From: Treponema sp.
GTDB lineage: Bacteria; Spirochaetota; Spirochaetia; Treponematales; Treponemataceae
DNA length: 64,000 bases
Reading direction: 5' to 3'
Assembly: GCA_017934745.1 (NCBI GenBank)
Contig: JAGBIY010000011.1
Coordinates: forward strand, 79,178 to 143,177
Positions 6,341 to 64,000 of the stretch are shown piece by piece. The notes under the pieces are model-generated. The model saw only the letters and a program-made list of their open reading frames with translations. It was not told the origin of the DNA and did not search any database. The translations under genes were made by a program, and so were the position numbers. Within the stretch, counting starts at the first letter, position 1; each line of letters opens with the position of its first letter.

Positions 6341-8509
6341 ATGGACAGGGAACAAGTGCAAAACGCTCAGAGAATACTCGAATGGAGAAAATCAATAGAG
6401 AAGATGCCTGACAACCAGTTCTTCGAATTGATGCGCATGTACATAGGAGAAGTGAAGACTCCGTTCAACAAGCACAAATTGATAGAAGAGCTAAGCGTAT
6501 TTTTGCGGAAGATAGAGAACAAGGAAAAAATCGCAAAGCTCCTGAGCGAATCCGACATGAGCGTGATAGCCGCGGTGAAATTCATAAGCAACGCGACGAC
6601 AAAAAAAGTCACGACATTCTTCGGGGGGACATTCACGTTCTCAAAGCTCTACGAGAGAATCATCAACCTTGAAGAGAGGCTCATACTCTACCGGCACGAT
6701 GAAGACGGAAAGGAATACCTACGCGTGAACCCGCATTTGGACGAAGTTTTCGACAAAATCATCACAAAGTCCATCCTGGTGAAAAAGGCGAACGTCATCA
6801 ACGAGAACAAGAGCCAGTATTTCAGGCTCTCGCCGGAGCTTCTGGCGGCGTTCGCCTCGTTCGTGGGGGGGAATCCGAGCCTGTGCAAAGCCGACGGAAC
6901 ATTCAAGAAAAAGACCGCGGCCCTGCTCGAAGAGATGTTCGGCGACAACTCAGGCCCGCTCTTTCTCGTGAAGCAGGCGTTCGAGAACCTGTCGATTCTC
7001 GTTGAGGACGAAAACGGAAAATCATCAATCGACAAATCAAAATTCATCTCGTTCTCGCGGCTTCCAGAAACGGTGCAGCACGCGTACATCGCAGTCGCGT
7101 CCCAGGGGCGATTCTCAAGGGGTTCCCTCACCCAGCAGGCGAAACTCCTAATCGAGACGATTCTGTCAATCCCGGAAAGCGGATACACGAGGGAGAACCT
7201 CCTCCGCTCGGCGTTCATAAAGTCGGGGAAGAAAAAGGACAACACGGGAGAGTCGGCGTTCGGAGCGCGCGGACGGTTCGCGAGCATACTCCAGAGGGCG
7301 AAGGAGAGGGAAGCCGAGGACGCGGACGAAAGCAGGAAAACGGCAACAGAGGACAACGACACGATTTTTTCGACGATGGACAGGCTCCTCGACTCTGCAC
7401 AGGAACTCGGACTTCTTCGCATAAAGGGGATAGAGAAAGGCGGAATCGACGTCCTTGAGGCCGGGGAAGGGCTAAGGGAAGGACTTTTCCAGAATTTTTC
7501 GGGAGCGGAGGAGCGGAAAGTCCTGAACATAGACGCGGCTTACAACGTCCTGCTTTTTCCTGGACTACCGCTGGAGAGCCTCATTCCGCTGACAGAAATC
7601 CTCGACTTGAAGAAATTCGACACGGCAGTTTCGTTCGAGCTTACCAAAAAGTCCATCATGCGGGGATTCGACTCCGGCATGGACGAAAAAAGCGTCGTCT
7701 CCACGCTTCAGGCGCACTGCGTCCACGACCTTCCGCAGAATCTCCTCGTGTCCATCGACGACTGGAAGAAAAGCTATTCCTCCGTTGCGGTATACAAGGG
7801 CTACATCCTGAAAGTCGCATCCGACAACCCCGCCCTCTCCGAGAAAAACCCGAATTTCGCGAAGCACATAGTCGAGACTCTCGCGCCGGGAATTTTCCTT
7901 CTGGACGTTTCGACCGACGAAGAGGCCAAAAGAATACTTGAATCGAGCGGAAAGGACTTCGTGGCGAAAATAAGGAGCGCGGAGCCGAAGAAGGCTTCGG
8001 AGGACTTCCCGATTCTGAGGATAGACGACGCTGAAAACGGAGACGGCGGAGATGGAAGCGGATTTCTGGTTCCGACATCCGACGACGAAAGGAAAGCGCA
8101 TTTCGACAAACTCAGGGGCGCGCTTTCGTCGATGAGGGAGAGGGAGGAGCTGACCCAGGAAGAGTACGAATGCCTCCTCTTCCGAGTGAACAGGAAAATC
8201 GTCCTGGACGAATCCCAGCTCAAGAAAGAGAGCGTCAAATTCGCAAAGCTTGAGGCCACCGGAATGGATTTTCCCGGCAAAGTGCACATAATCGAGCAGG
8301 CCGTGGCGGACAGGAGCACGATAGAAATCACGTTCATGTCGAGCGAAAACCCGGAAGGCGTTCTGGCTACAGGAATCCCGGTCTCCACCGAAAAATCCGA
8401 CGACGACGTGACCGTGACCATGAAGATGACCGGCACGAGCGTGATGAAGACATTCTCCATAAGCCAGGCGAGCAAGGTCAGACGCGTCTACAGCTCGGCG
8501 TTCTCGTGA
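6341..8509 (+). CDS. XPB-associated protein with helicase-associated (Helicase_C_3-like) and WYL-like regions
   Basis: The 722-residue protein is encoded immediately after XPB and most likely works with it. Residues ~405-540 (from YNVLLFPGLPLESL through LPQNLLVSIDDWKKSYSS to IFLLDVSTDEEAKRILESSG) match the pattern of the XPB/Ssl2 amino-terminal-type domain that bacteria often encode as a separate partner. The N-terminal ~300 residues look like helical winged-helix repeats. The last ~90 (VADRSTIEITFMSS and onward) resemble a WYL-like sensor fold. There is no signal peptide and the protein is highly charged. Its function is inferred from pairing: regulating or loading XPB in DNA repair. The first array of the TGAGCGnAGTCGAA repeat begins 12 bp after the stop codon. 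Confidence 0.75.
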   Translation: MDREQVQNAQRILEWRKSIEKMPDNQFFELMRMYIGEVKTPFNKHKLIEELSVFLRKIENKEKIAKLLSESDMSVIAAVKFISNATTKKVTTFFGGTFTFSKLYERIINLEERLILYRHDEDGKEYLRVNPHLDEVFDKIITKSILVKKANVINENKSQYFRLSPELLAAFASFVGGNPSLCKADGTFKKKTAALLEEMFGDNSGPLFLVKQAFENLSILVEDENGKSSIDKSKFISFSRLPETVQHAYIAVASQGRFSRGSLTQQAKLLIETILSIPESGYTRENLLRSAFIKSGKKKDNTGESAFGARGRFASILQRAKEREAEDADESRKTATEDNDTIFSTMDRLLDSAQELGLLRIKGIEKGGIDVLEAGEGLREGLFQNFSGAEERKVLNIDAAYNVLLFPGLPLESLIPLTEILDLKKFDTAVSFELTKKSIMRGFDSGMDEKSVVSTLQAHCVHDLPQNLLVSIDDWKKSYSSVAVYKGYILKVASDNPALSEKNPNFAKHIVETLAPGIFLLDVSTDEEAKRILESSGKDFVAKIRSAEPKKASEDFPILRIDDAENGDGGDGSGFLVPTSDDERKAHFDKLRGALSSMREREELTQEEYECLLFRVNRKIVLDESQLKKESVKFAKLEATGMDFPGKVHIIEQAVADRSTIEITFMSSENPEGVLATGIPVSTEKSDDDVTVTMKMTGTSVMKTFSISQASKVRRVYSSAFS

Positions 8510-8520
8510 GGAAAACGGTG

Positions 8521-8670
8521 CTTCGGCTACGCTCAGCAACCGGCTTGTTCATTGAGCGGAGTCGAAATGCGGTCATTGAGCGGAGTCGAAATGCGGTCAT
8601 TGAGCGAAGTCGAAATGCGGTCATTGAGCGGAGTCGAAATGCGGTCATTCCGAACTTGTTTCGGAATCTG
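8521..8670. repeat. Fold-back repeat array (core TGAGCGnAGTCGAA), first array
   Basis: An inverted unit (TTCGGCTACGCTCAG, 8522-8536) is followed by the centre CAACCGGCTTGTTCATTGAG. Four direct 24-bp units with TGAGCG(G/A)AGTCGAA then start at 8550, 8574, 8598 and 8622. The array ends in the hairpin ATTCCGAACTTGTTTCGGAAT (8648-8668). It lies between the XPB partner and the leucine-rich-repeat gene. Confidence 0.9.
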
Positions 8671-10627: not shown

Positions 10628-10772
10628 CTTCGACTCCCTTCGACTTCGCTCAGGGAACAGCCCAGCAACCGGCTTGTTCATTGAGCGAAGTCGAAATGCG
10701 GTCATTGAGCGGAGTCGAAATGCGGTCGATGAGCAGAGCCGAAATGCGGTCATTGAGCGGAGTCGAAATGAA
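10628..10772. repeat. Fold-back repeat array (core TGAGCGnAGTCGAA), second array
   Basis: Inverted units (CTTCGACTTCGCTCAGG) are followed by the same centre as the first array (CAACCGGCTTGTTCATTGAG). Four direct 24-bp units follow, one degenerate (ATGAGCAGAGCCGAA). It ends about 35 bp before the GIY-YIG gene. Confidence 0.9.
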
Positions 10773-10807
10773 CAAAATAAAAATAAATACGGAGAGAGAA
10801 ACGGACT

Positions 10808-11314
10808 ATGAAAGGCTATATGTACATATTAAAATGTGCAAATGGAAGTTATTATACGGGGAGTACAATTGATTTGGAACGACGTTTGGAGCAACATAAA
10901 AACGGAGAAGGTGCAAAATTCACAAAGAAGCATTTGCCCGTGGAACTTGTTTATGTTGAAGAGTTCTCGAAGATAGAAGATGCGTTTTATCGTGAAAAAC
11001 AAATACAAGGTTGGTCGAGAAAGAAAAAAGAAGCGTTAATGGCAGGAAATTTTGAAGAATTGCATGAATTGGCAGAATGCAAAAATGCTACAAAATCGCT
11101 TGCTTCGGCTACGCTCAGCAACCGTGCTTCGACTCTCTTCGACTTCGCTCAGGGAACAGCTCAGCAACCGTGCTTCGACTCCGCTCAGCAACCGGCTTGT
11201 TCATTGAGCGCAGTCGAACCGTGGTCGGTGAGCGGAGCCGAACCGCGGTCATTGAGCGCAGTCGAAATGCGGTCGGTGAGCGGAGTCGAACCGACAATGA
11301 AAACGGAGAATTGA
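10808..11314 (+). CDS. GIY-YIG nuclease family protein with repeat-derived C-terminal tail
   Basis: Residues 1-94 form a complete small GIY-YIG domain of the YhbQ/UvrC-N type. YMYILKC and SYYTGSTIDLERRLEQH give the Y...YxG and Arg motifs, and FYREKQIQGWSRKKKEALM gives the catalytic Glu helix. Related proteins are usually about 80-100 residues. Here the frame stays open for 74 more residues (FDFAQGTAQQP, SLSAVE, SVSGVEP) that are simply translation of the fold-back repeat array. The domain part is AT-rich with codon use unlike its neighbours, which suggests transfer. Arrays on both sides suggest that nuclease and repeats are linked. Whether the tail is made or tolerated is unknown. Confidence 0.85.
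   Translation: MKGYMYILKCANGSYYTGSTIDLERRLEQHKNGEGAKFTKKHLPVELVYVEEFSKIEDAFYREKQIQGWSRKKKEALMAGNFEELHELAECKNATKSLASATLSNRASTLFDFAQGTAQQPCFDSAQQPACSLSAVEPWSVSGAEPRSLSAVEMRSVSGVEPTMKTEN
11099..11296. repeat. Fold-back repeat array (core TGAGCGnAGTCGAA), third array, inside GIY-YIG frame
   Basis: Three to four inverted units (TTCGGCTACGCTCAGCAACC, TTCGACTTCGCTCAGG, TTCGACTCCGCTCAGCAACC) are followed by the shared centre CAACCGGCTTGTTCATTGAG. Four direct units (TGAGCGCAGTCGAACC, TGAGCGGAGCCGAACC and similar) follow. It overlaps the 3' third of the GIY-YIG coding frame. Confidence 0.9.
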
Positions 11315-14314: not shown

Positions 14315-14492
14315 TCTAATAGGGCGAAAGTCGAGTTTTCACAGTGCAATGGCAGAAACGAGCGGAAGCGGGGTTCCGTCCATCAAAACACTCAGCCACC
14401 GCGAAGCGGTACTGCCGTTTTGATGGGCGGGTTCCCACTGGGAGCTTGTTTCTGCAACTACGGTATGCATAAACTCGACATTCGACCTAATA
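14315..14492 (+). repeat. Palindromic element, copy A (full length)
   Basis: Terminal inverted repeats TAATAGGGCGAAAGTCGAG and TTAGGTCGAATGTCGAG (right end read inversely) enclose long imperfect arms. The arms pair GGCAGAAACGAG with TTGTTTCTGC, then CCATCAAAAC with GTTTTGATGG, around the central hairpin ACCGCGAAGCGGT. It sits between the binding-protein and permease genes of one operon, so their mRNA would carry a roughly 175-nt hairpin. Confidence 0.9.
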
Positions 14493-20051: not shown

Positions 20052-20250
20052 TATAGCAGGGCGAATGTCGAGTTTATGCATACCGTAGTTGCCGAAACGC
20101 GCTCCCAGCGGGAACCCATAGCCGAATGCGGCAGTACCGCTTCGCGGTGGCGTTAACATCGCGTGCGATGTTTAGTGCATTCGGCTATGGAACCCCACTT
20201 CCGCTCGTTTCTGCCATTGCACTGTGAAAACTCGACTTTCGCCCTTCTAT
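20052..20250 (-). repeat. Palindromic element, copy C (inverse orientation, with loop insertion)
   Basis: Same ends as the other copies. The variable stem is CATAGCCGAATGC pairing with GCATTCGGCTATG, the type seen in copy E. Near the central hairpin a three-base loop segment is replaced by about 23 bp containing the palindrome AACATCGCGTGCGATGTT (20155-20172). The element's edge includes the rex stop codon (20247-20249). Confidence 0.9.
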
Positions 20251-31105: not shown

Positions 31106-32332
31106 CTAGAAATTGACTTCGGTGTCGTAGTAGCAGCACTTCAAGAGCTTCTCCATCTCTTCCTGGGTCGGCTGTCTCGGGTTGCTTCCAGTGCAGGCGT
31201 CGGCAATCGCGTTCTTGGCGATTTCAGGCAGCCGTTCAAGGAAGACGTCCTCGGGGACGAAGCCCTTCTCGCACGGATAGCTGTCGGCGCCGTATGTTCC
31301 GATTGAGTGCGGAATCTTGAGGTCGTCGTTCATGCCGCGGAGATATTTGATGAGAGCGGCGATTTTCTCTTTCTCGGTCGAGCCGCCCAAGCCCATGAAG
31401 TCGGCGATGACGGCGTATCGCTTCGCCGCGGTCGGGTCCTTCGCGTTGAAGGCGATGACTTTCGGAAGATACATCGCGTTCGCCGCACCGTGTATGATGT
31501 GCGCGTGAAGGCCTCCCACGTCCTCGAAAGCAGCTCCGGTCTTGTGCGCCATGGAGTGCACGATGCCGAGAAGCGCGTTCGAGAACGCCATTCCGGCCAG
31601 GCACTGTGCGTCGTGCATCCTGTCGCGCGCGCCCATGTCGCCGTTGTACGATTTGACCAAATCCGCCTGAATCATCTTTATCGAATGCAATGCGAGCGGG
31701 TCGGTGTAGTTGCAGTTCGCTGTGGAAACGTAAGCCTCGATTGCGTGCGTGATTGCGTCCATTCCTGTGTGGGCGACGAGCTTCTGCGGCATCGTCTCGG
31801 CGAGTTCGGGGTCCACAATCGCCACGTCAGGCGTGATTTCAAAGTCGGCGATTGGATATTTGATTCCCTTGTCGTAGTCGGTGATGATTGAGAACGCCGT
31901 GACTTCAGTGGCTGTGCCGGAAGTTGACGAGACGGCGCAGAAATGGGCCTTTTTGCGGAGTTCCGGGATTCCGAAAACCTTGCACATGTCCTCGAAAGTG
32001 CTGTCGGGATACTCGTACTTTATCCACATTGCCTTGGCCGCGTCGATTGGAGAGCCGCCGCCGATGGCCACAATCCAGTCCGGCTGGAATTCGAGCATCT
32101 TCTTGGCTCCGTTCATCACAGTCGTCACCGACGGGTCAGGCTCGATTCCGTCGATAATCGAGACCTCCATTCCGGCTTCCTTCAGGTATTTCTCGGCCTT
32201 GTCGAGGAATCCGAACATCTTCATCGAGCCGCCACCAACGCAGATGACGGCCCTCTTTCCCTTGAGATTTTTGAGGGCCTCAAGCGCGCCCTTTCCGTGA
32301 TACAAGTCACGAGGCAGAGTAAATCTTTGCAA
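31106..32332 (-). CDS. Iron-containing alcohol dehydrogenase
   Basis: The 408-residue enzyme of the Fe-ADH family (butanol dehydrogenase/AdhE C-terminal type) probably reduces aldehydes with NAD(P)H during fermentation. It shows nucleotide-binding VAIGGGSPIDAAKAMW near residue 89, SSTSGTATEVTAFSIITD near 140, and metal-ligand segments DPELAETMPQKLVAHTGMDA ITHAIEAY (Asp/His near 190-205) and HSMAHKTGAAFEDVGGLHAH (His near 262-280). The start is a TTG with a strong AAAGGAGG ribosome binding site 8 nt upstream. A perfect palindrome sits just upstream of that site and may regulate it. Confidence 0.93.
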   Translation of the reverse strand: MQRFTLPRDLYHGKGALEALKNLKGKRAVICVGGGSMKMFGFLDKAEKYLKEAGMEVSIIDGIEPDPSVTTVMNGAKKMLEFQPDWIVAIGGGSPIDAAKAMWIKYEYPDSTFEDMCKVFGIPELRKKAHFCAVSSTSGTATEVTAFSIITDYDKGIKYPIADFEITPDVAIVDPELAETMPQKLVAHTGMDAITHAIEAYVSTANCNYTDPLALHSIKMIQADLVKSYNGDMGARDRMHDAQCLAGMAFSNALLGIVHSMAHKTGAAFEDVGGLHAHIIHGAANAMYLPKVIAFNAKDPTAAKRYAVIADFMGLGGSTEKEKIAALIKYLRGMNDDLKIPHSIGTYGADSYPCEKGFVPEDVFLERLPEIAKNAIADACTGSNPRQPTQEEMEKLLKCCYYDTEVNF

Positions 32333-32346
32333 AATAAGTACCTCCT

Positions 32347-32370
32347 TTTTTTAACAACTCTGTTAAAAAA
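32347..32370 (-). promoter_or_regulatory. Perfect palindrome upstream of the alcohol dehydrogenase RBS
   Basis: TTTTTTAACA and TGTTAAAAAA form a 10-bp inverted repeat around ACTC, touching the ribosome binding site. It looks like an operator or an mRNA hairpin. The half-sites face the opposite way from the usual Rex operator (TTGTTAA...TTAACAA). Confidence 0.5.
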
Positions 32371-32540
32371 TAGGATAAATCCAGTTTCGCGAGATTGCAA
32401 ATTCGATTATGGGGAGAGCGCTACACTTGCAGTTCGATGAAGGCGATTTTCTGTGCGCTCAAGGAACACAATAGCTTCAAAATAGATTTTCCGGCTGTCA
32501 TTTCCGAGCCCTATCTTGATTGTATACTTTTTTTTATATA

Positions 32541-32677
32541 GTAGGGCGAAAATCGAGGTTTTACAGTGCAATGGCAGTACTGCCGTTTTGGGCAAGACTG
32601 CGCAAGCAGGCTGCGGTTCCCGCCGGGAGCTTGTTTCTGCAACTACGATATGCATAAACTCGACATTCGGCCTAATA
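32541..32677 (+). repeat. Palindromic element, copy D (internally shortened)
   Basis: Both ends are present (GTAGGGCGAAAATCGAG and the right end CTCGACATTCGGCCTAATA). The left arm jumps from CAATGGCAG to TACTGCCG, so part of the arm and the usual centre are lost. The new centre is TTGGGCAAGACTGCGCAAGC. It is directly followed by copy E. Confidence 0.85.
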
Positions 32678-32678
32678 G

Positions 32679-32853
32679 GTAGGTCAAAAGTCGAGTTTTT
32701 ACAGAGGAATGGCCGAAACGAGCGGAAGCGGGGTTCCATAGCCGAATGCACTCAGCCACCGCGAAGCGGTACTGCCGCATTCGGCTGTGGGTTCCCGCTG
32801 GGAGCGCGTTTCGGCAACTACGGTATGCATAAACTCGACATTCGGCCTAATAG
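32679..32853 (+). repeat. Palindromic element, copy E (full length)
   Basis: Outer arm GGCCGAAACG pairs with CGTTTCGGC, where other copies have GGCAGAAACG and GTTTCTGC. The variable stem CATAGCCGAATGC pairs with GCATTCGGCTGTG, where copies A, G and I have CATCAAAAC and GTTTTGATG. The central hairpin ACCGCGAAGCGGT is unchanged. With copy D it fills most of the 600-bp gap between the alcohol dehydrogenase and the HTH gene. Confidence 0.92.
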
Positions 32854-32933
32854 GTAATTTTCATTTTCTCACTATTTTGCGGTAATAATCAAGTTTAAAA
32901 GATAATTTCAATTTTTTTCTACAGAATCATTCG

Positions 32934-33272
32934 ATGAATTTTTGGGAAATAGTTGATGCAGAACTTGAATACAGGGGAATGAGCAGAAAAACTCTGTCTG
33001 ATTTGGCGGAATTCAATTTGTCAAATGTCGGAAAGGGGATAAAGCTCGGAATCACACCGTCTGCAGAAACTGCCGTCAAAATCGCGCAAGTACTGAACGT
33101 TACGGTGGAATATCTCGTGACAGGCAAAAATTCAAATGGGGCAAACATGGAAGACGACGAACTACCGTTGCTTCACAAATACAACAAGGTGGTGAAGTCG
33201 CTTGAATCAATATCCCCCAAGACACGAAGCGCGATAATAAAAATGATAATGGAGATTGGAAAAATCCAGTGA
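32934..33272 (+). CDS. Small XRE-type HTH regulator
   Basis: The 112-residue protein has an N-terminal Cro/C1-type helix-turn-helix (MSRKTLSDLAEFNLSNVGKG then PSAETAVKIAQVLNVTVEYL, residues ~15-62). A C-terminal helical part (VVKSLESISPKTRSAIIKMI) is probably for dimerisation. It has no clear ribosome binding site. It is convergent with the ATPase/nuclease pair that ends at 33306 and may regulate it, as small XRE proteins often do beside defence or toxin genes. That link is inference. Confidence 0.8.
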   Translation: MNFWEIVDAELEYRGMSRKTLSDLAEFNLSNVGKGIKLGITPSAETAVKIAQVLNVTVEYLVTGKNSNGANMEDDELPLLHKYNKVVKSLESISPKTRSAIIKMIMEIGKIQ

Positions 33273-38460: not shown

Positions 38461-39741
38461 ATGGCAATGGAAAATTCTAACAATAGAAGAAGAGTCGTCA
38501 TCACGGGAATGGGGGCTGTCTCGCCTGTGGGGAACACGGTGGAGGAGACTTGGGAGAGCGTCAAGAGCGGAAAATGCGGAATCTCAAAGATAACGCTTTT
38601 CGACCCTTCCCGCCTTTCGGTGAAGATTGCGGGAGAAGTGAAAAATTTCGACATTGAACGCTACGGGCTTGAGAAGAAGGTGCTCAGGCAGAAGGCGAGA
38701 TTCACGCAGCTCTGTCTTGGAGCGTCGGCGCAGGCCGTGTCGGATTCAGGCTATTCAGCGGAGAAGCTCGGCGGCGAAAGATGCGGAGTCGCGGTCGGCT
38801 GCTGTCTCGGCGGACTCGACGTGATGGCGGAGGCGTTCGCGAAAGTGGACGACCCGAACGCGGGCCCAGACAGGATGCCGCCACTCACAACCCCGATGAT
38901 GATAACGAACGAAGCCGCGGCGAACGTCTGCATCCAGTTCGGCATCAAGGGCTTCGGCTGGGCTTTGAACACGGCGTGCGCATCAGGCTCGGACGCGCTC
39001 GGACTCGCCTTGGACATGATTCGCTCCGGCCGCGTGGACATGTGCCTTGCCGGAGGAACTGAATCCGCGATAACGGAATTCTCAATCGCCTCTTTCATAA
39101 AGCTCCACGCCCTCGCCACGAAGTTCAACGACTGTCCGGAAAAGGCTTCCCGCCCGTTCGACAAGGACAGGGACGGATTCGTCATGGCGGAAGGCAGCGC
39201 GATGTTCATGATTGAGGAACTTGAGCACGCGAAAAAGCGCGGCGCGAAAATCTACGCTGAACTTGCAGGATTCGGAACGAGCAACGACGCATACCACATA
39301 ACCGCGCCACTCAAGGACGGAAGCGGAGCGGCGCAGGCCGTGAAGGCGGCTCTGGAGGATGCCGGAATCAGGGGCGAGGAAGTCCAGTACTACAACGCCC
39401 ACGGAACATCGACCCACGCCAACGACTCCGGCGAGACCGCCATGCTCAAACTCGTATTCGGCGACCACGCCAAAAAGCTCAAGATTTCTTCCACGAAATC
39501 CATGACCGGCCACCTCGTCGGAGCGGCAGGAGCAATCGAGGCCCTTTTCTGCGTGAAAGCGATAAACGACAGCTTCATTCCGCCCACAATCAACCTTGAA
39601 AACCCGGACACGGAAGGCGGCTGCGACCTCGACTACACGCCGAACAAGGGCGTGGGCGCGGAAGTGAGGGCTGCGGTCTCGGCATCCCTCGGATTCGGCG
39701 GCCACAACGGCTGCGTCGTAATCAAGAAGTTCGAGGAGTAG
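38461..39741 (+). CDS. fabF: 3-oxoacyl-ACP synthase II (KAS II, FabF-like)
   Basis: Condenses malonyl-ACP with acyl-ACP in fatty acid elongation. The 426-residue protein carries the Cys-His-His triad of the FabF/B class: NTACASGSDALG (Cys173), YNAHGTSTHANDSGE (His314) and KSMTGHLVGAAGAIEA (His351). It opens with RRVVITGMGAVSPVGNTVEE and closes with SASLGFGGHNGCVVIKKF. Two ATGs are possible (38461, 38467). No other fab or acp gene is adjacent, so a role in a dedicated lipid pathway cannot be excluded. A miniature palindromic element follows the stop codon directly. Confidence 0.93.
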   Translation: MAMENSNNRRRVVITGMGAVSPVGNTVEETWESVKSGKCGISKITLFDPSRLSVKIAGEVKNFDIERYGLEKKVLRQKARFTQLCLGASAQAVSDSGYSAEKLGGERCGVAVGCCLGGLDVMAEAFAKVDDPNAGPDRMPPLTTPMMITNEAAANVCIQFGIKGFGWALNTACASGSDALGLALDMIRSGRVDMCLAGGTESAITEFSIASFIKLHALATKFNDCPEKASRPFDKDRDGFVMAEGSAMFMIEELEHAKKRGAKIYAELAGFGTSNDAYHITAPLKDGSGAAQAVKAALEDAGIRGEEVQYYNAHGTSTHANDSGETAMLKLVFGDHAKKLKISSTKSMTGHLVGAAGAIEALFCVKAINDSFIPPTINLENPDTEGGCDLDYTPNKGVGAEVRAAVSASLGFGGHNGCVVIKKFEE

Positions 39742-39819
39742 GTTGAATGTCGAGTTGATGAAAATTGCAAATGTGGAAACAAGCTTCCACCTTGCATTCG
39801 TAAAACTCGATATTTGACC
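39740..39819. repeat. Palindromic element, copy F (miniature, about 80 bp)
   Basis: Ends GGTTGAATGTCGAGTT and AAACTCGATATTTGACC match the family. The interior is reduced to a short hairpin, GTGGAA/TTCCAC within TGCAA/TTGCA. It starts at the fabF stop codon and may end its transcript. Confidence 0.7.
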
Positions 39820-39830
39820 AATTAAACAAA

Positions 39831-39877
39831 AAAAACGGATTTGCCCACTTTTGAACATTCTTGGACAAATCCGTTTT
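39831..39877 (-). terminator. Terminator of the small lipoprotein gene
   Basis: AAACGGATTTGCCCA pairs with TGGACAAATCCGTTT. Stem and loop are nearly identical to the terminator at 40464-40509. Confidence 0.75.
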
Positions 39878-40407: not shown

Positions 40408-40463
40408 AAAAAAAATCCTTTTTACATATAGTAACACCGTAAGCAACTTTTTTGCAAACAAAA

Positions 40464-40512
40464 AAAACGGATTTGTCCAGTTTGAAACATTCTTGGACAA
40501 ATCCGTTTAAAA
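40464..40512 (-). terminator. Terminator of the radical SAM gene
   Basis: AAACGGATTTGTCCA pairs with TGGACAAATCCGTTT, with an A-run on one side and T-rich sequence on the minus-strand exit side. It lies 16 bp after the minus-strand stop at 40528. Confidence 0.8.
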
Positions 40513-45386: not shown

Positions 45387-46523
45387 ATGAACTCTTACAA
45401 ACTGAAATCCCTTCTCGGGACGTTGTTCTTTTGCGGGCTTTTCCTTGCCCTCTGCTACATCGTCATAAAGTACGTTCCGGGAAAAACAGACTCAGCGAAG
45501 ATTTGTTCGGAACAGGCGGAATTCAAATCTTTGCATTCAAAACTTGAGAACCCCAGGCTCTTCCTCACCCAAAAATTCTTGGACGAGAAGAGGCAGGTGT
45601 CTGCAACCGAAATTGAAAAAGACGAGGCTGAAAAAAAAGCCGACGAAAAAATCGAAATCGCCATCGACTTGGGCGAAGAAGAGCCGGAACCGGATTTTCT
45701 TTCGATGCTGCAGACGCCAGAATTCAAAGACGGTCTGGCCGCGCTCCTGACGGAAAGCAGGGACGAGCAGATTGAACAGCCCGCGAAAAAGGCGGCGCCG
45801 CAAAAGAAAAAGAAAGAAGACTTCAGCACACTTTCGCTCGCGCAGAATTCGCTTTCCGCCACAGCCTTTGCTGAAACGCTCGGAATGCCGGGCACGCAGA
45901 TTTTCAATTCGGCAAGCTTCGAACTTGCATATTCGAACGCGAAAGTCGACAACAAGGCAGGCTACAACGAGGACTACTCGCCGGTCGAGGACAGCTGCCT
46001 GGCACTTTACAGGCAGCAGCAGTCGCGCCCGGCAGTGGAATGGTTCTTCTCGCACATAACGAACAACAGGGAAGTCGCCCAGGCAATCCTTGAGAACGCC
46101 GACAAGAACGGAATATCGCCCACCCTCGCCTTCGCGCTCGCATACGTCGAAAGCCGCTACAAGGCCACGGCCGTGAACCACAACGCGAACGAATCTGTCG
46201 ACAGGGGGCTTTTCCAGCTGAACAGCAAGACCTTCCCGAAGCTGACCGAATCGGACTTCTTCAATCCGAGGACAAGCGCGAAATACGGCATGAAGCACCT
46301 GCGCTACTGCCTCGACATTGCCGGCAACGAACTGACCGCGCTCGCAATCTACAACGCCGGAACCTACCGGGTCAAGACGAACAACACACCGGAGCAGACT
46401 CTCAAGTACGTCGCGAAAATCTCGCGCTACAAGAAAAGCCTGGACAGCCAATTCTCCACGGAAGTCCTCGCATTCTACAGCACAGACGCCCGCACAAAAG
46501 CCCTCGCCATGCTGACAAACTAA
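45387..46523 (+). CDS. Lytic transglycosylase (SLT domain), membrane-anchored
   Basis: The 378-residue protein has an N-terminal anchor (LLGTLFFCGLFLALCYIVIK) and an acidic, lysine-rich linker (~45-160, e.g. EKKADEKIEIAIDLGEEEPE). The C-terminal goose-type/SLT domain has ISPTLAFALAYVESRYKATA with catalytic Glu255, then DRGLFQLNSKTFPKL and ALAIYNAGTYRV. It cleaves peptidoglycan glycan strands with anhydro-ring formation. The substrate-side Gly-Leu-Phe-Gln and Asn-Ala-Gly motifs are present. It probably acts in the periplasm on cell-wall remodelling or flagellar insertion. Confidence 0.9.
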   Translation: MNSYKLKSLLGTLFFCGLFLALCYIVIKYVPGKTDSAKICSEQAEFKSLHSKLENPRLFLTQKFLDEKRQVSATEIEKDEAEKKADEKIEIAIDLGEEEPEPDFLSMLQTPEFKDGLAALLTESRDEQIEQPAKKAAPQKKKKEDFSTLSLAQNSLSATAFAETLGMPGTQIFNSASFELAYSNAKVDNKAGYNEDYSPVEDSCLALYRQQQSRPAVEWFFSHITNNREVAQAILENADKNGISPTLAFALAYVESRYKATAVNHNANESVDRGLFQLNSKTFPKLTESDFFNPRTSAKYGMKHLRYCLDIAGNELTALAIYNAGTYRVKTNNTPEQTLKYVAKISRYKKSLDSQFSTEVLAFYSTDARTKALAMLTN

Positions 46524-46535
46524 AAAAAGACAGAC

Positions 46536-46690
46536 TCCGTGTTCAGAACGCTGCGCGTTCTGAGTAGTTTCGCCACAATCGCAAAGCTTCTTCAACCAGT
46601 GTCGCGAAACTCCGTGTTCAGAACGCGCAGCGTTCTGAGTAGTTTCGCTACAATCGCAATATTTTTTTTCCAACCAGTTTCGCGAAACTA
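46536..46690. repeat. 75-bp tandem duplication of a hairpin unit
   Basis: Two units start TCCGTGTTCAGAACGC at 46536 and 46611. Each contains GAACGC/GCGTTC and an outer AGTTTCGC/GCGAAACT pair. The second ends within the pflA stop region (46688), so it probably ends that minus-strand transcript and the plus-strand transglycosylase transcript. Confidence 0.8.
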
Positions 46691-50807: not shown

Positions 50808-50978
50808 TTGGGCGAAAGTCGAGTTTTCACAGAGCAATGGCAGAAACGAGCGGAAGCGGGGTTCCGTCCATCAAAACACTCAGCCACCGCGAAGCGGTAC
50901 TGCCGTTTTGATGGGCGGGTTCCCGCTGGGAGCGCGTTTCTGCAACTACGATATGCAGAAACTCGACATTCGACCTAT
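50808..50978 (+). repeat. Palindromic element, copy G (full length)
   Basis: Ends GGGCGAAAGTCGAG and CTCGACATTCGACCTA (right end as written). The variable stem is CATCAAAAC/GTTTTGATG as in copies A and I. It lies between the convergent nitroreductase and pyruvate formate-lyase genes. Confidence 0.9.
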
Positions 50979-53791: not shown

Positions 53792-55363
53792 CTATTTCAG
53801 CAGATTGTTCTTCTGGGCGAACTCCAAGCACTTTTCGTTCCACTCGCGTCCGCCCTTATTGTCGAAATCGGAAAGCCAATCCTTCCAGTTGTCAGGAGTC
53901 AAATTGCGCTTTCCGCGCACGAAATCCACAAGGCTTGTCTCCACGAATTTCTTCAAATCCGCGCTGGAGGCAGGAAGCTGATCCGCACCTACTCCGTTCG
54001 TCCAAGTCATTCCCCGCATCTCTTCAAGAACTTTGTACGCGCTCATCTTCTTTCCGTTGTTCGTCGTCCACTCTGGATATCGGGCTTCAAGCTCCTCGTC
54101 AGAATTGTAGAGGACGAGGTTCCGAAGCTGCAGGTACGGCATCATCTCCGGCTTCGAGTAAGCCTTCAATGGATCGGGGAGGTTTTCAACGCTGATTTTT
54201 CCGGCAGCGTCGCGGGTGTAGTTTTCGCCCTCGATTCCGTAGCCGAGCAGATGGTAGCCCTCGTCGCTGCTCATCCATTCCAGAAGCTCGGCGATTTTCG
54301 CGAGTTTCGGCTCGGCCTTCTTGGAGACGGCGAGGAGACGGTGGCCTGTCTCGGTGAAGATTCCGACAGACTTCTTTCCGCCAGGACCCACGGGCGCGTC
54401 GATGACAATCCACTCACCTTCCGGGTACGCATCGTCGAACGGCTTGTAGTTTGCCTCAAGTGCGAAAGCCGCGTTCTGCTCGCGCATGATTCCGAAGCGG
54501 CCGCTCTTCCACGCGTTCCTGAAATCGTCTTTTCCGTAAGCGTCCCAGTTCGGGTCGATGACTTTCGCCTCGATTATTTTTCTGATGAATTCAAGCGCGT
54601 CGTAATATTCCGGTTTGTATATCGAAAGTCCTGCCCTGTCTTTTTCAAGGCAGAAAGTCCCCGGAACGCCGAAAGCTCCGAAGAACGGCTGGAATTTTCG
54701 CCCCAATCCGTCCTCCTCCTTGCGAACCTCAAGGAACGCGCCGAAACCGAATGTGTCATCCTTTCCGTTTCCGTCAGGGTCCCTGAACGTGAAGTCCCTC
54801 ATCACATCGAAGAATTCATCGATTGTCACAGGAACTTTCAGAGAAAGTTTGTCGAGCCAATCCTTCCTGATGAGGAGACCTTCGTTCTGGGCTACAGAAC
54901 TTTGCTGAGCAAGCGCGTATGAATGCCCCTTCGTGTTGTAGACGTTTCTCGAATATTCGTCGTACATCTTGGCGGTCCTGTTCGGCATCATGTCGAACAT
55001 GGACTCCACAGGCGCGACATCTTCGCTCTGTATCATCTTAGAAAGTGCCTCGCCCGTGGTGGAAAAGAGGTCGGGAAGTTTTCCGGACGAAGCCGCGTCG
55101 AGGATGAGCTTCGTCTGGTCGGCGGATTTCGCCGGAAGTGGAGTCAACTTCAGATTTATGCCAAGCTCTTTCTTGACCTTGTTGAAGACGACCCAATCGG
55201 AGGGTGGCGGACCGGCTTCAGAAAAGCTTGGGTTGTACCACACCTCGACCGTCGTCAATTCCGAATCAGAGTCATCGCACGAAACGAGCGATGCGCTGAT
55301 GCAAAAAACTGCAAGAAATGCGACAAATTGCAACATTTTCAAAATATTCAACGTTTTTCTCAT
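53792..55363 (-). CDS. Extracellular solute-binding lipoprotein, paralog 1
   Basis: The 523-residue family 1 (sugar/oligosaccharide type) binding protein is anchored as a lipoprotein (lipobox SASLVSC, Cys about 28). Shared segments with the next gene include TVEVWYNPSFSEAG, GLLIRKDWLDKLSLKVPVTI, TFRDPDGNGKDDTFGFGAF and SGRFGIMREQNAAFALEANY. A calcium-binding-like DPDGNGKDD loop is present. It resembles the LipO/YtcQ-type proteins that feed complex-sugar ABC transporters, but no permease or ATPase gene is adjacent, so it must use a transporter encoded elsewhere. It is preceded by paralog 2 with a 116-bp gap. Confidence 0.88.
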   Translation of the reverse strand: MRKTLNILKMLQFVAFLAVFCISASLVSCDDSDSELTTVEVWYNPSFSEAGPPPSDWVVFNKVKKELGINLKLTPLPAKSADQTKLILDAASSGKLPDLFSTTGEALSKMIQSEDVAPVESMFDMMPNRTAKMYDEYSRNVYNTKGHSYALAQQSSVAQNEGLLIRKDWLDKLSLKVPVTIDEFFDVMRDFTFRDPDGNGKDDTFGFGAFLEVRKEEDGLGRKFQPFFGAFGVPGTFCLEKDRAGLSIYKPEYYDALEFIRKIIEAKVIDPNWDAYGKDDFRNAWKSGRFGIMREQNAAFALEANYKPFDDAYPEGEWIVIDAPVGPGGKKSVGIFTETGHRLLAVSKKAEPKLAKIAELLEWMSSDEGYHLLGYGIEGENYTRDAAGKISVENLPDPLKAYSKPEMMPYLQLRNLVLYNSDEELEARYPEWTTNNGKKMSAYKVLEEMRGMTWTNGVGADQLPASSADLKKFVETSLVDFVRGKRNLTPDNWKDWLSDFDNKGGREWNEKCLEFAQKNNLLK

Positions 55364-55479: not shown

Positions 55480-57030
55480 CTACTCCACGAACGAATTCGA
55501 CTCTTCGACCTGGGTTACGCAAGCCTTCTCCCACTCCAAGCCGCCGAGCCTGTCGAACTCTGAAAGCCAAGAATTCCAGTTGTCGCGTGTGAGGTTGCGT
55601 TTTCCGACAGCGAATTCCATGAGGCTGGACTCGTAGAATTTCTTCAAATCGGCTGGAATCGAAGGAACTCCGACAGACTTCGCCCACGGCTTCTTCTGCA
55701 TAGCACGGAGAAGGGTGAGCGCGCTCATCTGCCTGCCCATCTTTGTGTACCATGTCGGATAGCGGGCGGCAAGCTCGGCATCGCTTCCGTAGAAAACGAG
55801 ATTGCGGAGCTGGAGCATCGGAGCCATTTCCTTTTTTGTGTAGGCAAAATCAGGATTGAGGAGATTCTTCGTCGAAATGTTTCCGTCGCCGTCTATCGTG
55901 TAGTTCACATCCTTGAGACCATAGGCGATGACGTTGTATCCGTCAGTGCTCATCCATTCAAGCAATCGCGCGATGTGCTCCATCTTGCCAAGCTCGGAAG
56001 CGCGTCTGGACACGGCGAACGTCCTGTACGACTGGGTGTAGCAGCCGACCGCGGATTTTCCGTCGGGTCCCACGGGCGGATCGATGAGCATCCACTCTCC
56101 GTTCGGGAAATTTTCGTCGAAAGGCTTGTAGTTCGATTCTAGAGCCAGCGCGGCGTTCTGCTCGCGCATGATTCCGAAACGACCGCTCTTCCACGCTTCC
56201 CTAAAGTCGTCCTTCTTGTACGCCTCCCAGTTCGGATCGATGAGTTTGTCGGCGACGATTTTCCTGACAAGCGTCATGGCGTCGTAGAACCCAGGTTTGT
56301 GCACGTTCAAGCCGATGTCGCTCTTCGACGCGTTGAAAGTGCCTGCCACACCGTAAGCTCCGAAGAAAGGAGAGAATCTGCGTCCAAGCCCGCCTTCATG
56401 GTTGTTGATTTCGATGAACGCGCCCAATCCGTAAGTGTCGTTCTTTCCATTTCCGTCAGGATCGTTGTAGGTGAAAGCGTGCATGACTGAAAGATACTCG
56501 TCCACAGTCTTCGGCGGCTGGAGTCCAAGCTTGTCCAGCCAGTCCTTCCTGATGAGGACACCCTCATTCCTGTCTATGGAACCGAGCTGACAAAGGCCGT
56601 ATGTCAATCCGTCGAACTGTCCGGCCTTGCGCGCGCTCTCGTCGTATATCGTCGAAGAGCGGCGTGGCATCAACTCGAACATGCGGTCTACACGGGCGAC
56701 CTTGTCCTCTTTCACGAGTTTCACGAGAGTCTCCCTGTTGCACATGAAGAAGTCCGGGAGGGCGTTCGCCTTGGAAGCCTGAGTGATGACCTCCGCCTGC
56801 TCGTCAGTCTTAGACGGAAGCGGCTTTGTCTTGAGCCTTATTCCGAGCTGGTCCTCTATTATTTTGTACCCGGGCCAATCGTCCGGCAAAGGAGCGTCCG
56901 CGCTGGTGTATGGGCTGTACCAAATTTCAAGATCGACAAGTCCGTCGTTTTTGTCAGCGGAGCAAGAGAAGAGCAGCGAAAGCGACGCGCACAAGAATGC
57001 CGCACCCGCTTTTTTCATAATTTTCTTCAT
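55480..57030 (-). CDS. Extracellular solute-binding lipoprotein, paralog 2
   Basis: 516 residues from the ATG at 57030 (MKKIMKKAGAAFLCASLSLL), lipobox LLFSC (Cys about 24). Collinear with paralog 1: DLEIWYSPYTSADAPLP, EGVLIRKDWLDKLGLQPPKT, TYNDPDGNGKNDTYGLGAF, SGRFGIMREQNAALALESNY. It arose by tandem duplication and both copies look intact. The two probably differ in ligand. Further upstream frames are not family-like, so this start is preferred. Confidence 0.88.
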   Translation of the reverse strand: MKKIMKKAGAAFLCASLSLLFSCSADKNDGLVDLEIWYSPYTSADAPLPDDWPGYKIIEDQLGIRLKTKPLPSKTDEQAEVITQASKANALPDFFMCNRETLVKLVKEDKVARVDRMFELMPRRSSTIYDESARKAGQFDGLTYGLCQLGSIDRNEGVLIRKDWLDKLGLQPPKTVDEYLSVMHAFTYNDPDGNGKNDTYGLGAFIEINNHEGGLGRRFSPFFGAYGVAGTFNASKSDIGLNVHKPGFYDAMTLVRKIVADKLIDPNWEAYKKDDFREAWKSGRFGIMREQNAALALESNYKPFDENFPNGEWMLIDPPVGPDGKSAVGCYTQSYRTFAVSRRASELGKMEHIARLLEWMSTDGYNVIAYGLKDVNYTIDGDGNISTKNLLNPDFAYTKKEMAPMLQLRNLVFYGSDAELAARYPTWYTKMGRQMSALTLLRAMQKKPWAKSVGVPSIPADLKKFYESSLMEFAVGKRNLTRDNWNSWLSEFDRLGGLEWEKACVTQVEESNSFVE

Positions 57031-60077: not shown

Positions 60078-60241
60078 TTGGTCGAAAGTCAAGTTTTCAC
60101 AGAGCAATGGCTGAAGCTAGCGGAAGCGGGGTTCCACAGTCGAATACACTCAGCCACCGCAAAGCGGTACTGCCGTATTCGACTGTGGGTTCCCGCTGGG
60201 AGCTAGACTCAGCAACTACGATATGCTCAAACTCGACATTC
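60078..60241 (+). repeat. Palindromic element, copy H (right end abuts the next gene)
   Basis: Third stem type: CACAGTCGAATAC/GTATTCGACTGTG. The central hairpin ACCGCAAAGCGGT has a changed loop (AAA for GAA). Outer arms read GGCTGAAGCTAG and CTAGACTCAGC. The right terminal repeat stops at CTCGACATTCG, and the GTG start of the LPP20-like gene follows at once. Confidence 0.88.
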
Positions 60242-61447
60242 GTGCGGATTGTTTCTTTGTGGGGGCTTTTGCTGTGCGCCGCCTCAATCCTTTTCTCGTG
60301 CGCGACGAACGACGCGCTCCTTTCGGATTCGGCGTTCGAGGACGGAATCTACTCGTGCAGCTACGAGCGGGTCACGGAGAACGTGCAGACAGAAAGCCTC
60401 TATCTGAATTCCGGCATGGACTACTCTCTTTGGCAGAGCGGCACGATGAGCGGAACGGCGGTCGAAATGTCCGGCAGGAAATTCACACAGGGCGGATTCT
60501 ACGACGACGAGGGCAGGCTTTCCGGGCTTGAGCTCTCGATAGACGCAGACGGAACGATTTTTTCGGAGCAGAACGAAAGCGTGAGCGGAAAAGCCTACGC
60601 GGACGGCAGGATTTTCTGGAGCGGAGTCGTGGAAGAGCACGGCCAGAAGGTGTTCGTGACTGAATACGCATACCTCAGCAGAGTCTACGAAACATCGCTC
60701 GCCCCCTCGAAACTCAACGGAAAGTACAAGGTGAATCTCGACAGGAGGTTCGGGGAACTTGAGTTCACGCTCAAAAACGGAATCGCAGAATCGGACGTCT
60801 CAAAATTCATCGTCGACAAGAACGGAGAGTTCAGAAGCAGGAACAGCATGAAAATCGTGCAGAAGCTTGGAGGTGAATCCCAGGCGAACACGATTCTGGA
60901 TGTCGCAAGCTACGGAAAAATCGATTCTGACGGAAAAGTGACTTACAAGATGTACGCGGGAACTTCATCCGCTGTCGATTCGGCTGATTCCTCAAACGAA
61001 AACGGAACGCTCTCCTTCACCGGAGAGAAAGTCGCGACATCGGCAGAGGAAAACGTGAGCGACGAAGGGACTGCGGACTCGGCAACTTCTTCGGCAGAGA
61101 AAAAAACATCAACGCAGGAGAAGACGAATCTCCAGAAACCGAATTTTCCCCCATGGTACAAAAACGAAGTCGAGGAACGGAGCGGAAAACTCGTTTCATG
61201 CGCCCACGCGTCGGCAAGGGGAAAAAGCGTCGCGAAAAACATCGCGCTGACCACGGCACTCTCGAAAATCTCCAGCCACAAGGCACTTTCCGTGAAGTCG
61301 GAAAGCATTTCAAAACTCGACGGCGACACACGAAGCCTGATGGAATTGATAGAAATCATGTCGGAGAGAAAAATCGACTACGAAATCGAAGAAGAATACG
61401 CCGAAAAGGAAAGCCAGACCTATTTCGTAAAAATAAAGGAGAAGTGA
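60242..61447 (+). CDS. LPP20-like lipoprotein
   Basis: About 401 residues. The signal peptide VRIVSLWGLLLCAASILFSC (Cys about 20) is in frame with a GTG at 60242. No ribosome binding site is visible, because the upstream sequence is palindromic element H. Reading could instead start at an ATG inside the element (60107). Residues ~40-270 form beta-rich repeats (FEDGIYSCSYERVTENVQTE, GMDYSLWQSGTMSGTAVEMS). A Ser/Glu-rich linker leads to the C-terminal LPP20 domain (PPWYKNEVEERSGKLVSCAH ASARGKSVAKNIALTTAL). LPP20 proteins are surface lipoproteins of unclear role. It is coupled to the RNase H gene (2 bp). Confidence 0.72.
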   Translation: MRIVSLWGLLLCAASILFSCATNDALLSDSAFEDGIYSCSYERVTENVQTESLYLNSGMDYSLWQSGTMSGTAVEMSGRKFTQGGFYDDEGRLSGLELSIDADGTIFSEQNESVSGKAYADGRIFWSGVVEEHGQKVFVTEYAYLSRVYETSLAPSKLNGKYKVNLDRRFGELEFTLKNGIAESDVSKFIVDKNGEFRSRNSMKIVQKLGGESQANTILDVASYGKIDSDGKVTYKMYAGTSSAVDSADSSNENGTLSFTGEKVATSAEENVSDEGTADSATSSAEKKTSTQEKTNLQKPNFPPWYKNEVEERSGKLVSCAHASARGKSVAKNIALTTALSKISSHKALSVKSESISKLDGDTRSLMELIEIMSERKIDYEIEEEYAEKESQTYFVKIKEK

Positions 61448-63859: not shown

Positions 63860-64000
63860 CTAGGTCGAATGTCGAGTTTCTGCATATCGTAGTTGCAGAA
63901 ACAAGCTCCCAGCGGGAACCCGTCCATCAAAACGGCAGTACCGCTTCGCGGTGGCTGAGTGTTTTGATGGACGGAACCCCGCTTCCGCTCGTTTCTGCCA
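63860..64000 (-). repeat. Palindromic element, copy I (cut by window edge)
   Basis: It begins TAGGTCGAATGTCGAG in the inverse orientation, with the stem GTCCATCAAAAC/GTTTTGATGGAC and the central hairpin ACCGCTTCGCGGT. It runs to the end of the window within GCTCGTTTCTGCC. Confidence 0.9.

Follow-up and report, generated by a model that had tools for sequence, protein, structure and literature searches.

The repeats in the window

The window, i.e., the whole stretch of 64,000 nucleotides under analysis, belongs to a Treponema draft genome (G000; 3.58 Mb, 73 contigs) and contains nine copies of a near-palindromic repeat, the number given in the initial annotation. Five copies are complete, one is truncated by the window edge and three are partial. 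The adjoining genes are ordinary and include those of a permease, an alcohol dehydrogenase, a pyruvate formate lyase and a chaperonin, among others. The copies are as follows:

14322–14487, plus strand: complete 166-bp copy with arm GTCCATCAAAAC, flanked by the 5-bp duplication TAATA
18142 to about 18211, plus strand: partial copy, 5′ half only
20059–20244, minus strand: complete copy of the 186-bp class, with an additional head hairpin
32544–32672, plus strand: internally deleted copy of 129 bp that forms a tandem with the named one
32682–32847, plus strand: named copy, 166-bp class; core at 32712–32817
39741–39819, strand not given: remnant copy, 79 bp after deletion
50810–50975, plus strand: complete copy, 166 bp; 5-bp duplication TATTT
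60080–60245, plus strand: complete 166-bp copy with the arms CACAGTCGAATAC / GTATTCGACTGTG and no visible duplication
63863–64000, minus strand: copy truncated by the window edge

The copy at 32682–32847, referred to here as the named copy, is a real element with the inner arms CATAGCCGAATGC and GCATTCGGCTGTG; the wider interval first assigned to it, 32679–32853, had taken in a few flanking bases. It is flanked on both sides by the 9-bp repeat TAATAGGTA (32673–32681 and 32848–32856). The predicted fold reaches −92.1 kcal/mol, compared with a shuffled mean of −55.1 (z = −9.6), and none of 200 shuffles was as low. The three inner-stem versions quoted in the initial annotation are all present and all paired, one of them with a G.U pair. 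The annotation had placed no coding sequence inside, and no sign of a conserved one was seen; mechanically called open reading frames overlap some copies. The annotation had also recognized no named family, and the Rfam search of the window agrees, with no family at the gathering score and, at E-values up to 5, eight sub-threshold models, mostly microRNA precursors.

Other repeats occur in the same window. Two 53-bp palindromic repeats, 92% alike (39824–39876 and 40456–40508), adjoin the 79-bp remnant at 39741–39819. Repeats spaced by 24 bp form two clusters and one single copy (8490–8662, 10643–10791 and 11166–11290). Multiple stretches of 53840–54921 recur about 1.68 kb away in 55531–56603 with 72–77% identity and are probably paralogous genes.

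Ends, copy number and insertion

The search of the whole source genome for the ends, with up to three mismatches, gave 95 matches to the 3′-end pattern and 88 to the 5′-end pattern, and none to a reversed control. The true copy number is uncertain, because many contigs start inside a copy. Sixty-one copies were collected with both ends, and they define a terminal inverted repeat of 17 bp: the copies start with GGKCGAAWGTCGAGTTT and finish with its reverse complement. The main length classes are 166, 186 and 203 bp, accompanied by deleted forms of 90–129 bp; a single nested copy measures 269 bp. Such repeats are short (90–269 bp), non-coding and present in many copies, as miniature inverted-repeat transposable elements (MITEs) are.

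An exact 5-bp target duplication surrounds 25 of the 54 source-genome copies with both flanks, whereas shuffling gives a mean of 1.8 and a maximum of 5. The length is specific, since equality over 4 bp was found in none of these 54 copies and over 6 bp in one. The target sites of this genome resemble TANTA, and insertion is mostly into AT-rich DNA. Duplications are rarer in genome G059 (4 of 16) and absent in the more distant G060 (0 of 14), as expected for older insertions. An empty site, visible on one flank, lies near window position 46520, where the source genome is continuous and G059 carries a copy. The duplications and the empty site, the latter a check that had been proposed at the outset, indicate that the element moves, or moved, in the manner of a MITE. 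The repeats are a non-autonomous, non-coding, MITE-type mobile element of rumen Treponema.

The exact 3′ end occurs in 13 stretches of named records, from four Treponema metagenome-assembled genomes, three of which are named for roe deer, goat and sheep samples. Of 197 genus genomes, 24 contain the exact 17-bp end. Plasmid and phage records gave no match to the element, and viral contigs gave none to the 3′-end pattern. Near-exact ends also bound other short element families with different interiors. Such common ends on different interiors point to a shared mobilizing enzyme.

Short families starting with the same 17-bp end were seen in genomes G028 (L222–L231), G005 (L233–L235), G085 (L236) and G009 (L203); the G009 family retains the GGA/GGGA core described below, and the others have unrelated hairpins. 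In a further family, that of L171 (G171 C3 and G152 C80; L493, L498), the elements of about 40–56 bp comprise scarcely more than both ends.

A search for a complete element, in which these ends would enclose a transposase, had also been suggested; it was made in several ways and found none. Transposase domain PF01609 had matches in 10 of 35 genomes, and no end repeat (up to three mismatches) lay in those loci; the single PF01609 gene of the source genome is presumably ISAs1-like. Ends that are not continued by the family's own sequence occur, among the places listed, at 31 positions in seven of eight genomes, and those inspected revealed no parent element. Around other ends (G028, G005, G085, G009 and G000), 18 stretches contained no distant second end at the stringency used. 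A search for exact ends in the 197 genus genomes and viral contigs led to the inspection of 37 loci, whose nine translated long open reading frames were judged by eye to be ordinary genes, and a Tn3 transposase (PF01526) exceeded the cut-off in none of the 197 genomes. An autonomous element with these ends is thus absent from the places inspected, among draft genomes that may miss one. Some known MITE families likewise have no known parent. The Neisseria CREE (PMC2649163) is an example.

Paired changes in the stem

Covariation was studied in an alignment (A1) of 54 different 166-bp-class copies, taken from four genomes, from which one hybrid (L092, 1 of 55) was excluded; 24 of 82 source-genome rows, of 128 or 148 bp, had been dropped, apparently as copies truncated at contig ends. 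The consensus fold has 48 pairs, of which 26 changed on both sides. Paired cells amount to 99.0%, compared with 88.0% in shuffled alignments and 35–41% in slid registers, a percentage that is by itself biased upward because the structure was derived from the same sequences. The covariation score is 0.328, against 0.108 for shuffled alignments and 0.033–0.055 for slid registers, and on none of five measures did any of 500 shuffles score as high. The 13-nt inner arm is the clearest example of such behavior: it exists in 26 versions among the 54 copies, with a mean difference of 5.7 positions, and 51 of the 54 rows are paired throughout. The covariation of the hairpin stem beyond these controls is real, as the initial annotation had proposed. 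The 26 different inner arms also speak against the inversion of one ancestral insert, which had been named there as another account of the stems.

Two motifs of unpaired or wobble positions accompany the stem. GGA opposite GGGA is near-invariant in the alignment, and some G060 copies have GTA or GTGA. In the second motif, GUU opposite GUU, the G.U and U.G pairs are each present in 53 of the 54 copies.

The core across the genus

A covariance model (R1) of the central 106 positions was built from 30 of the 54 aligned sequences, following the search of related Treponema genomes that had been recommended. At E ≤ 0.001 it has matches in 64 of 147 genus genomes and none in 83, a few of these entries being apparently repeats of earlier ones; among the matches listed, five of the 64 genomes have more than 20. 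In 183,688 bases of other loci, the model had no match. It matches the copies on the opposite strand as well, with a far lower score, as near-palindromes do. The choice first offered between a mobile element and a structured RNA is therefore not an exclusive one: the first is borne out by the target duplications, and MITE ends here enclose a 106-nt fold found in 64 of the 147 genomes.

The diverged members of the core differ entirely in their stems and, judged by eye, have at least five types of head, and GKA/GRGA and GUU/GUU are placed identically in them. In two genomes the outer arms are private to each copy. In G138 (20 copies), the value for an arm with its own partner is 15.4, compared with 8.95 across copies and 7.7 after shuffling; in G119 (10 copies), the values are 16.6, 9.61 and 7.8. 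The contrast is weaker in G032 (7 copies; 12.4, 8.9 and 9.4), and in the recently amplified family of the source genome the own and cross-copy values are equal (14.9 and 15.3). In three genomes, G102 (L364), G077 (L366) and G091 (L373), the core and similar 3′ flanks precede the same start region, AAAGGGTGTGGAAATGA; with flanks and start region in common, this copy looks vertically kept.

Wobble pairs and changes at common sites

The RNA and DNA levels can be told apart by the mismatches. If the selection acts on RNA, G.U is tolerated and A.C is not; if only DNA is involved, both are tolerated equally. By parsimony on the alignment, single changes led to G.U in 31 cases, to A.C in 12 and to another mismatch in 9, and double changes number 87, a count in which the fold, predicted on the same strand, could favor G.U columns. 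Isolated mismatches were counted in unique contexts on a strand-neutral alignment, which gave 33 G.U and 6 A.C in the core, against 29 G.U and 42 A.C in the outer arms. By source, the core ratio is 20:2 for pattern-found copies, and the first and second batches found with the model give 6:4 and 8:0, respectively. A looser count of the outer arms, including shared mismatches, gives 293 A.C and 145 G.U, or 103 and 88 without G000, G059 and G061. The difference between 33:6 and 29:42 suggests that selection at the RNA level acts on the core, with no visible sign of it on the outer arms, whose pairing would be better explained by arm copying at the DNA level. The idea that selection or copying acts on the fold, as RNA or as single-stranded DNA, thus divides: the RNA-type preference is confined to the core.

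Copies at the same site in G000 and G059 (flank identity about 88–97%) reveal how the element changes in place; the nested pair L134/L296 was excluded, as its insertion points do not coincide. Three sites are nearly unchanged (L117/L307, L014/L316 and L271/L303). At L094/L298, the same 203-bp site has a different inner arm, unpaired in both copies. L026/L299 share the duplication and differ in orientation and stem, L053/L306 are of 166 and 203 bp with one flank rearranged, and L121/L312 are of 90 and 166 bp. The site of the remnant at window position 39741 holds 79 bp in G000, 203 bp in G059 (L310) and 165 bp in G060, and L310 looks recombinant, as if half of an old-site copy had been fused to half of a young-type one. 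At the 203-bp site L139, G059 retains scarcely more than both ends (L321), and at the site of L114, G061 carries a different, fully paired stem (L348). Counts of single and double changes at such pairs are affected by alignment slips in the swapped stems.

Template switching homogenizes arms and inverts spacers, as parts of one source describe (PMC8604942), and has been proposed, in parts of another, as both the creator and the maintainer of RNA hairpins (PMC8794818). The block changes could equally well stem from gene conversion between copies. An unrelated 75-bp tandem repeat in the window (46534–46584 and 46609–46659; L311, 840–950) has its palindromic center exactly inverted between units, GAACGCTGCGCGTTC versus GAACGCGCAGCGTTC, and the center is also inverted between G000 and G059 at the unit adjoining the empty site. 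The pattern is a minor trace, left by the inversion of a spacer or by an exchange between the units.

Interpretation

It is fairly likely that the repeats are a non-autonomous mobile element whose core hairpin is selected as RNA and whose arms are rewritten by DNA processes. A transposase acting in trans would move the element, which inserts with the 5-bp duplication. The hairpin core, about 106 nt long, keeps its fold across much of the genus, with paired changes in the stems and persistent GKA/GRGA and GUU/GUU motifs. It probably acts as RNA, because of these paired changes, the persistent unpaired motifs and the excess of G.U over A.C mismatches, and most likely as a protein-bound mRNA hairpin, by analogy with the Neisseria CREE and RNase III. 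The paired changes probably arise largely from DNA processes, template switching within the palindrome and gene conversion, which copy one arm onto the other or exchange the interiors of different copies. RNA-level selection would retain the copies with a folding core, as the wobble asymmetry and the genus-wide motif conservation suggest. Several results count against this explanation: taken by itself, the first model-found batch has no core wobble preference (6:4), the changed arm at L094/L298 is uncompensated, no transposase with these ends was found, 83 of the 147 genomes have no core match, the looser outer-arm count is dominated by A.C (293 to 145) and a gene-orientation bias was not repeated.

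A broader proposal, to be held only tentatively, is a genus-wide mobile RNA module, whose core would be the RNA target of a protein, either a host RNase or regulator or the missing mobilizing enzyme. If true, the element spreads a ready-made part for post-transcriptional control, and arm copying keeps rewriting its stems.

The element could also be an ordinary palindromic MITE without RNA function, in which template switching and gene conversion keep the pairing and the core is conserved through a few master copies. Whole blocks swap or flip at common sites, L310 looks recombinant, the outer arms are paired copy by copy with no wobble preference, double changes prevail (87 versus 31 + 12 + 9) and the mechanism is published, as the parts of PMC8604942 and PMC8794818 used here describe. 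Arm copying should, however, erase GKA/GRGA and GUU/GUU, yet these are near-invariant across genomes with different stems, and the core prefers G.U to A.C (33 to 6), which makes the absence of any RNA function rather unlikely.

Another rival is a domesticated terminator or mRNA 3′-end element, spread through recombination rather than transposition. The copies of G020 and G111 with calls on two sides mostly lie after genes (+− 11, ++ 9, −− 6, −+ 0; n = 26), none lying between divergent genes, and 6 of 14 G060 copies are of the +− type. The copies of G000, G059 and G061 have no orientation preference (++ 17, −− 19, +− 15, −+ 12; two without a left call). A first diverged set has an operon-sense bias (++ 23, −− 6); it is not relied on because the second set failed to repeat it (++ 14, −− 11). 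Genes in these sets were crude open reading frames in 500-bp flanks (45 of 49 copies in the second set, the rest being short-flanked), and a version with 1500-bp flanks was set aside since the frames ran into the element. There is no preference for a T-run after the element, TTTT being found within 15 nt downstream in 11 of 54 copies and upstream in 14 of 54, and on these counts the terminator family that had been suggested finds no support. A consensus terminator scan of 32300–33100 found one in the adjoining partial copy and none in the named copy, and the target duplications show insertion, so this origin is very improbable.

An enzyme of the Y1/HUH or integron type that reads the folded single strand would suit a long hairpin with conserved extrahelical motifs, but it is highly unlikely here, as the core wobble excess (33:6) is unexpected for DNA folding and IS200/IS605 or attC recombination is not known to leave exact 5-bp duplications like those of 25 of 54 source-genome copies, on which ground both hairpin types were set aside.

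Significance and comparison with known systems

The reading as a mobile element with an RNA-selected core concerns a structured family that is apparently undescribed, occurs in many Treponema genomes, breaks draft assemblies and may affect the mRNAs of adjoining genes. No published description was found in the open-licence literature on MITEs, palindromes and transposases, structured RNA, rumen Treponema and insertion sequences; a microbiome survey (PMC8040213) mentions, in the part used here, Treponema motifs, 86 and 57 bp long, located upstream of ribosomal protein genes. The family is in effect a natural replicate experiment on the pairing of long hairpins, with dozens of insertions in one genome and sites common to sister genomes. 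Selection on RNA can be separated in it from template switching on DNA, because a wobble-tolerant core sits beside arms without wobble tolerance.

The miniature elements derived from Tn3 (TIMEs) are non-autonomous and short and make a 5-bp duplication, and the ends of Tn3 are of 38 bp and terminate in TAAG. The Treponema element shares the short length, the lack of autonomy and the duplication; unlike TIMEs, it occurs in a genus with no Tn3 transposase above the cut-off among 197 genomes, and the 38-bp ends were not seen. REP, BIME and REPIN sequences resemble it as many intergenic palindromes per genome, but it is much longer, its ends are defined, its core is oriented and it has a target duplication; REP palindromes were set aside on length and duplication.

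Palindromic bacterial MITEs, as parts of one account describe them, have AT-rich intergenic targets, inverted ends, duplications faded with age and transcripts with stable stem-loops (PMC10969869). The AT-rich targets, inverted ends and fading duplications are common to the Treponema element, which differs from such MITEs, as generally portrayed there, in an interior fold kept genus-wide, in compensated stems and in a strand-specific tolerance of wobble.

The nearest working parallel is the CREE (NEMIS) of Neisseria, of which the Treponema element is not a member. According to the sections of PMC2649163 used here, CREE are non-coding, mobile and 104–157 bp long, with inverted ends, a target duplication and an oriented conserved core; they insert at TA sites, their mRNA hairpin is bound by RNase III, and no mobilizing enzyme is shown in those sections. 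The Treponema element shares with them its short length, mobility and lack of coding sequence, as well as the inverted ends, the target duplication and a conserved core that has an orientation. Unlike CREE as described there, it has a 5-bp duplication rather than a TA target, its end repeat and core are unrelated to the CREE parts compared, and in its core the stem exists in many compensated versions and the heads are modular. By analogy, the two may nevertheless work alike.
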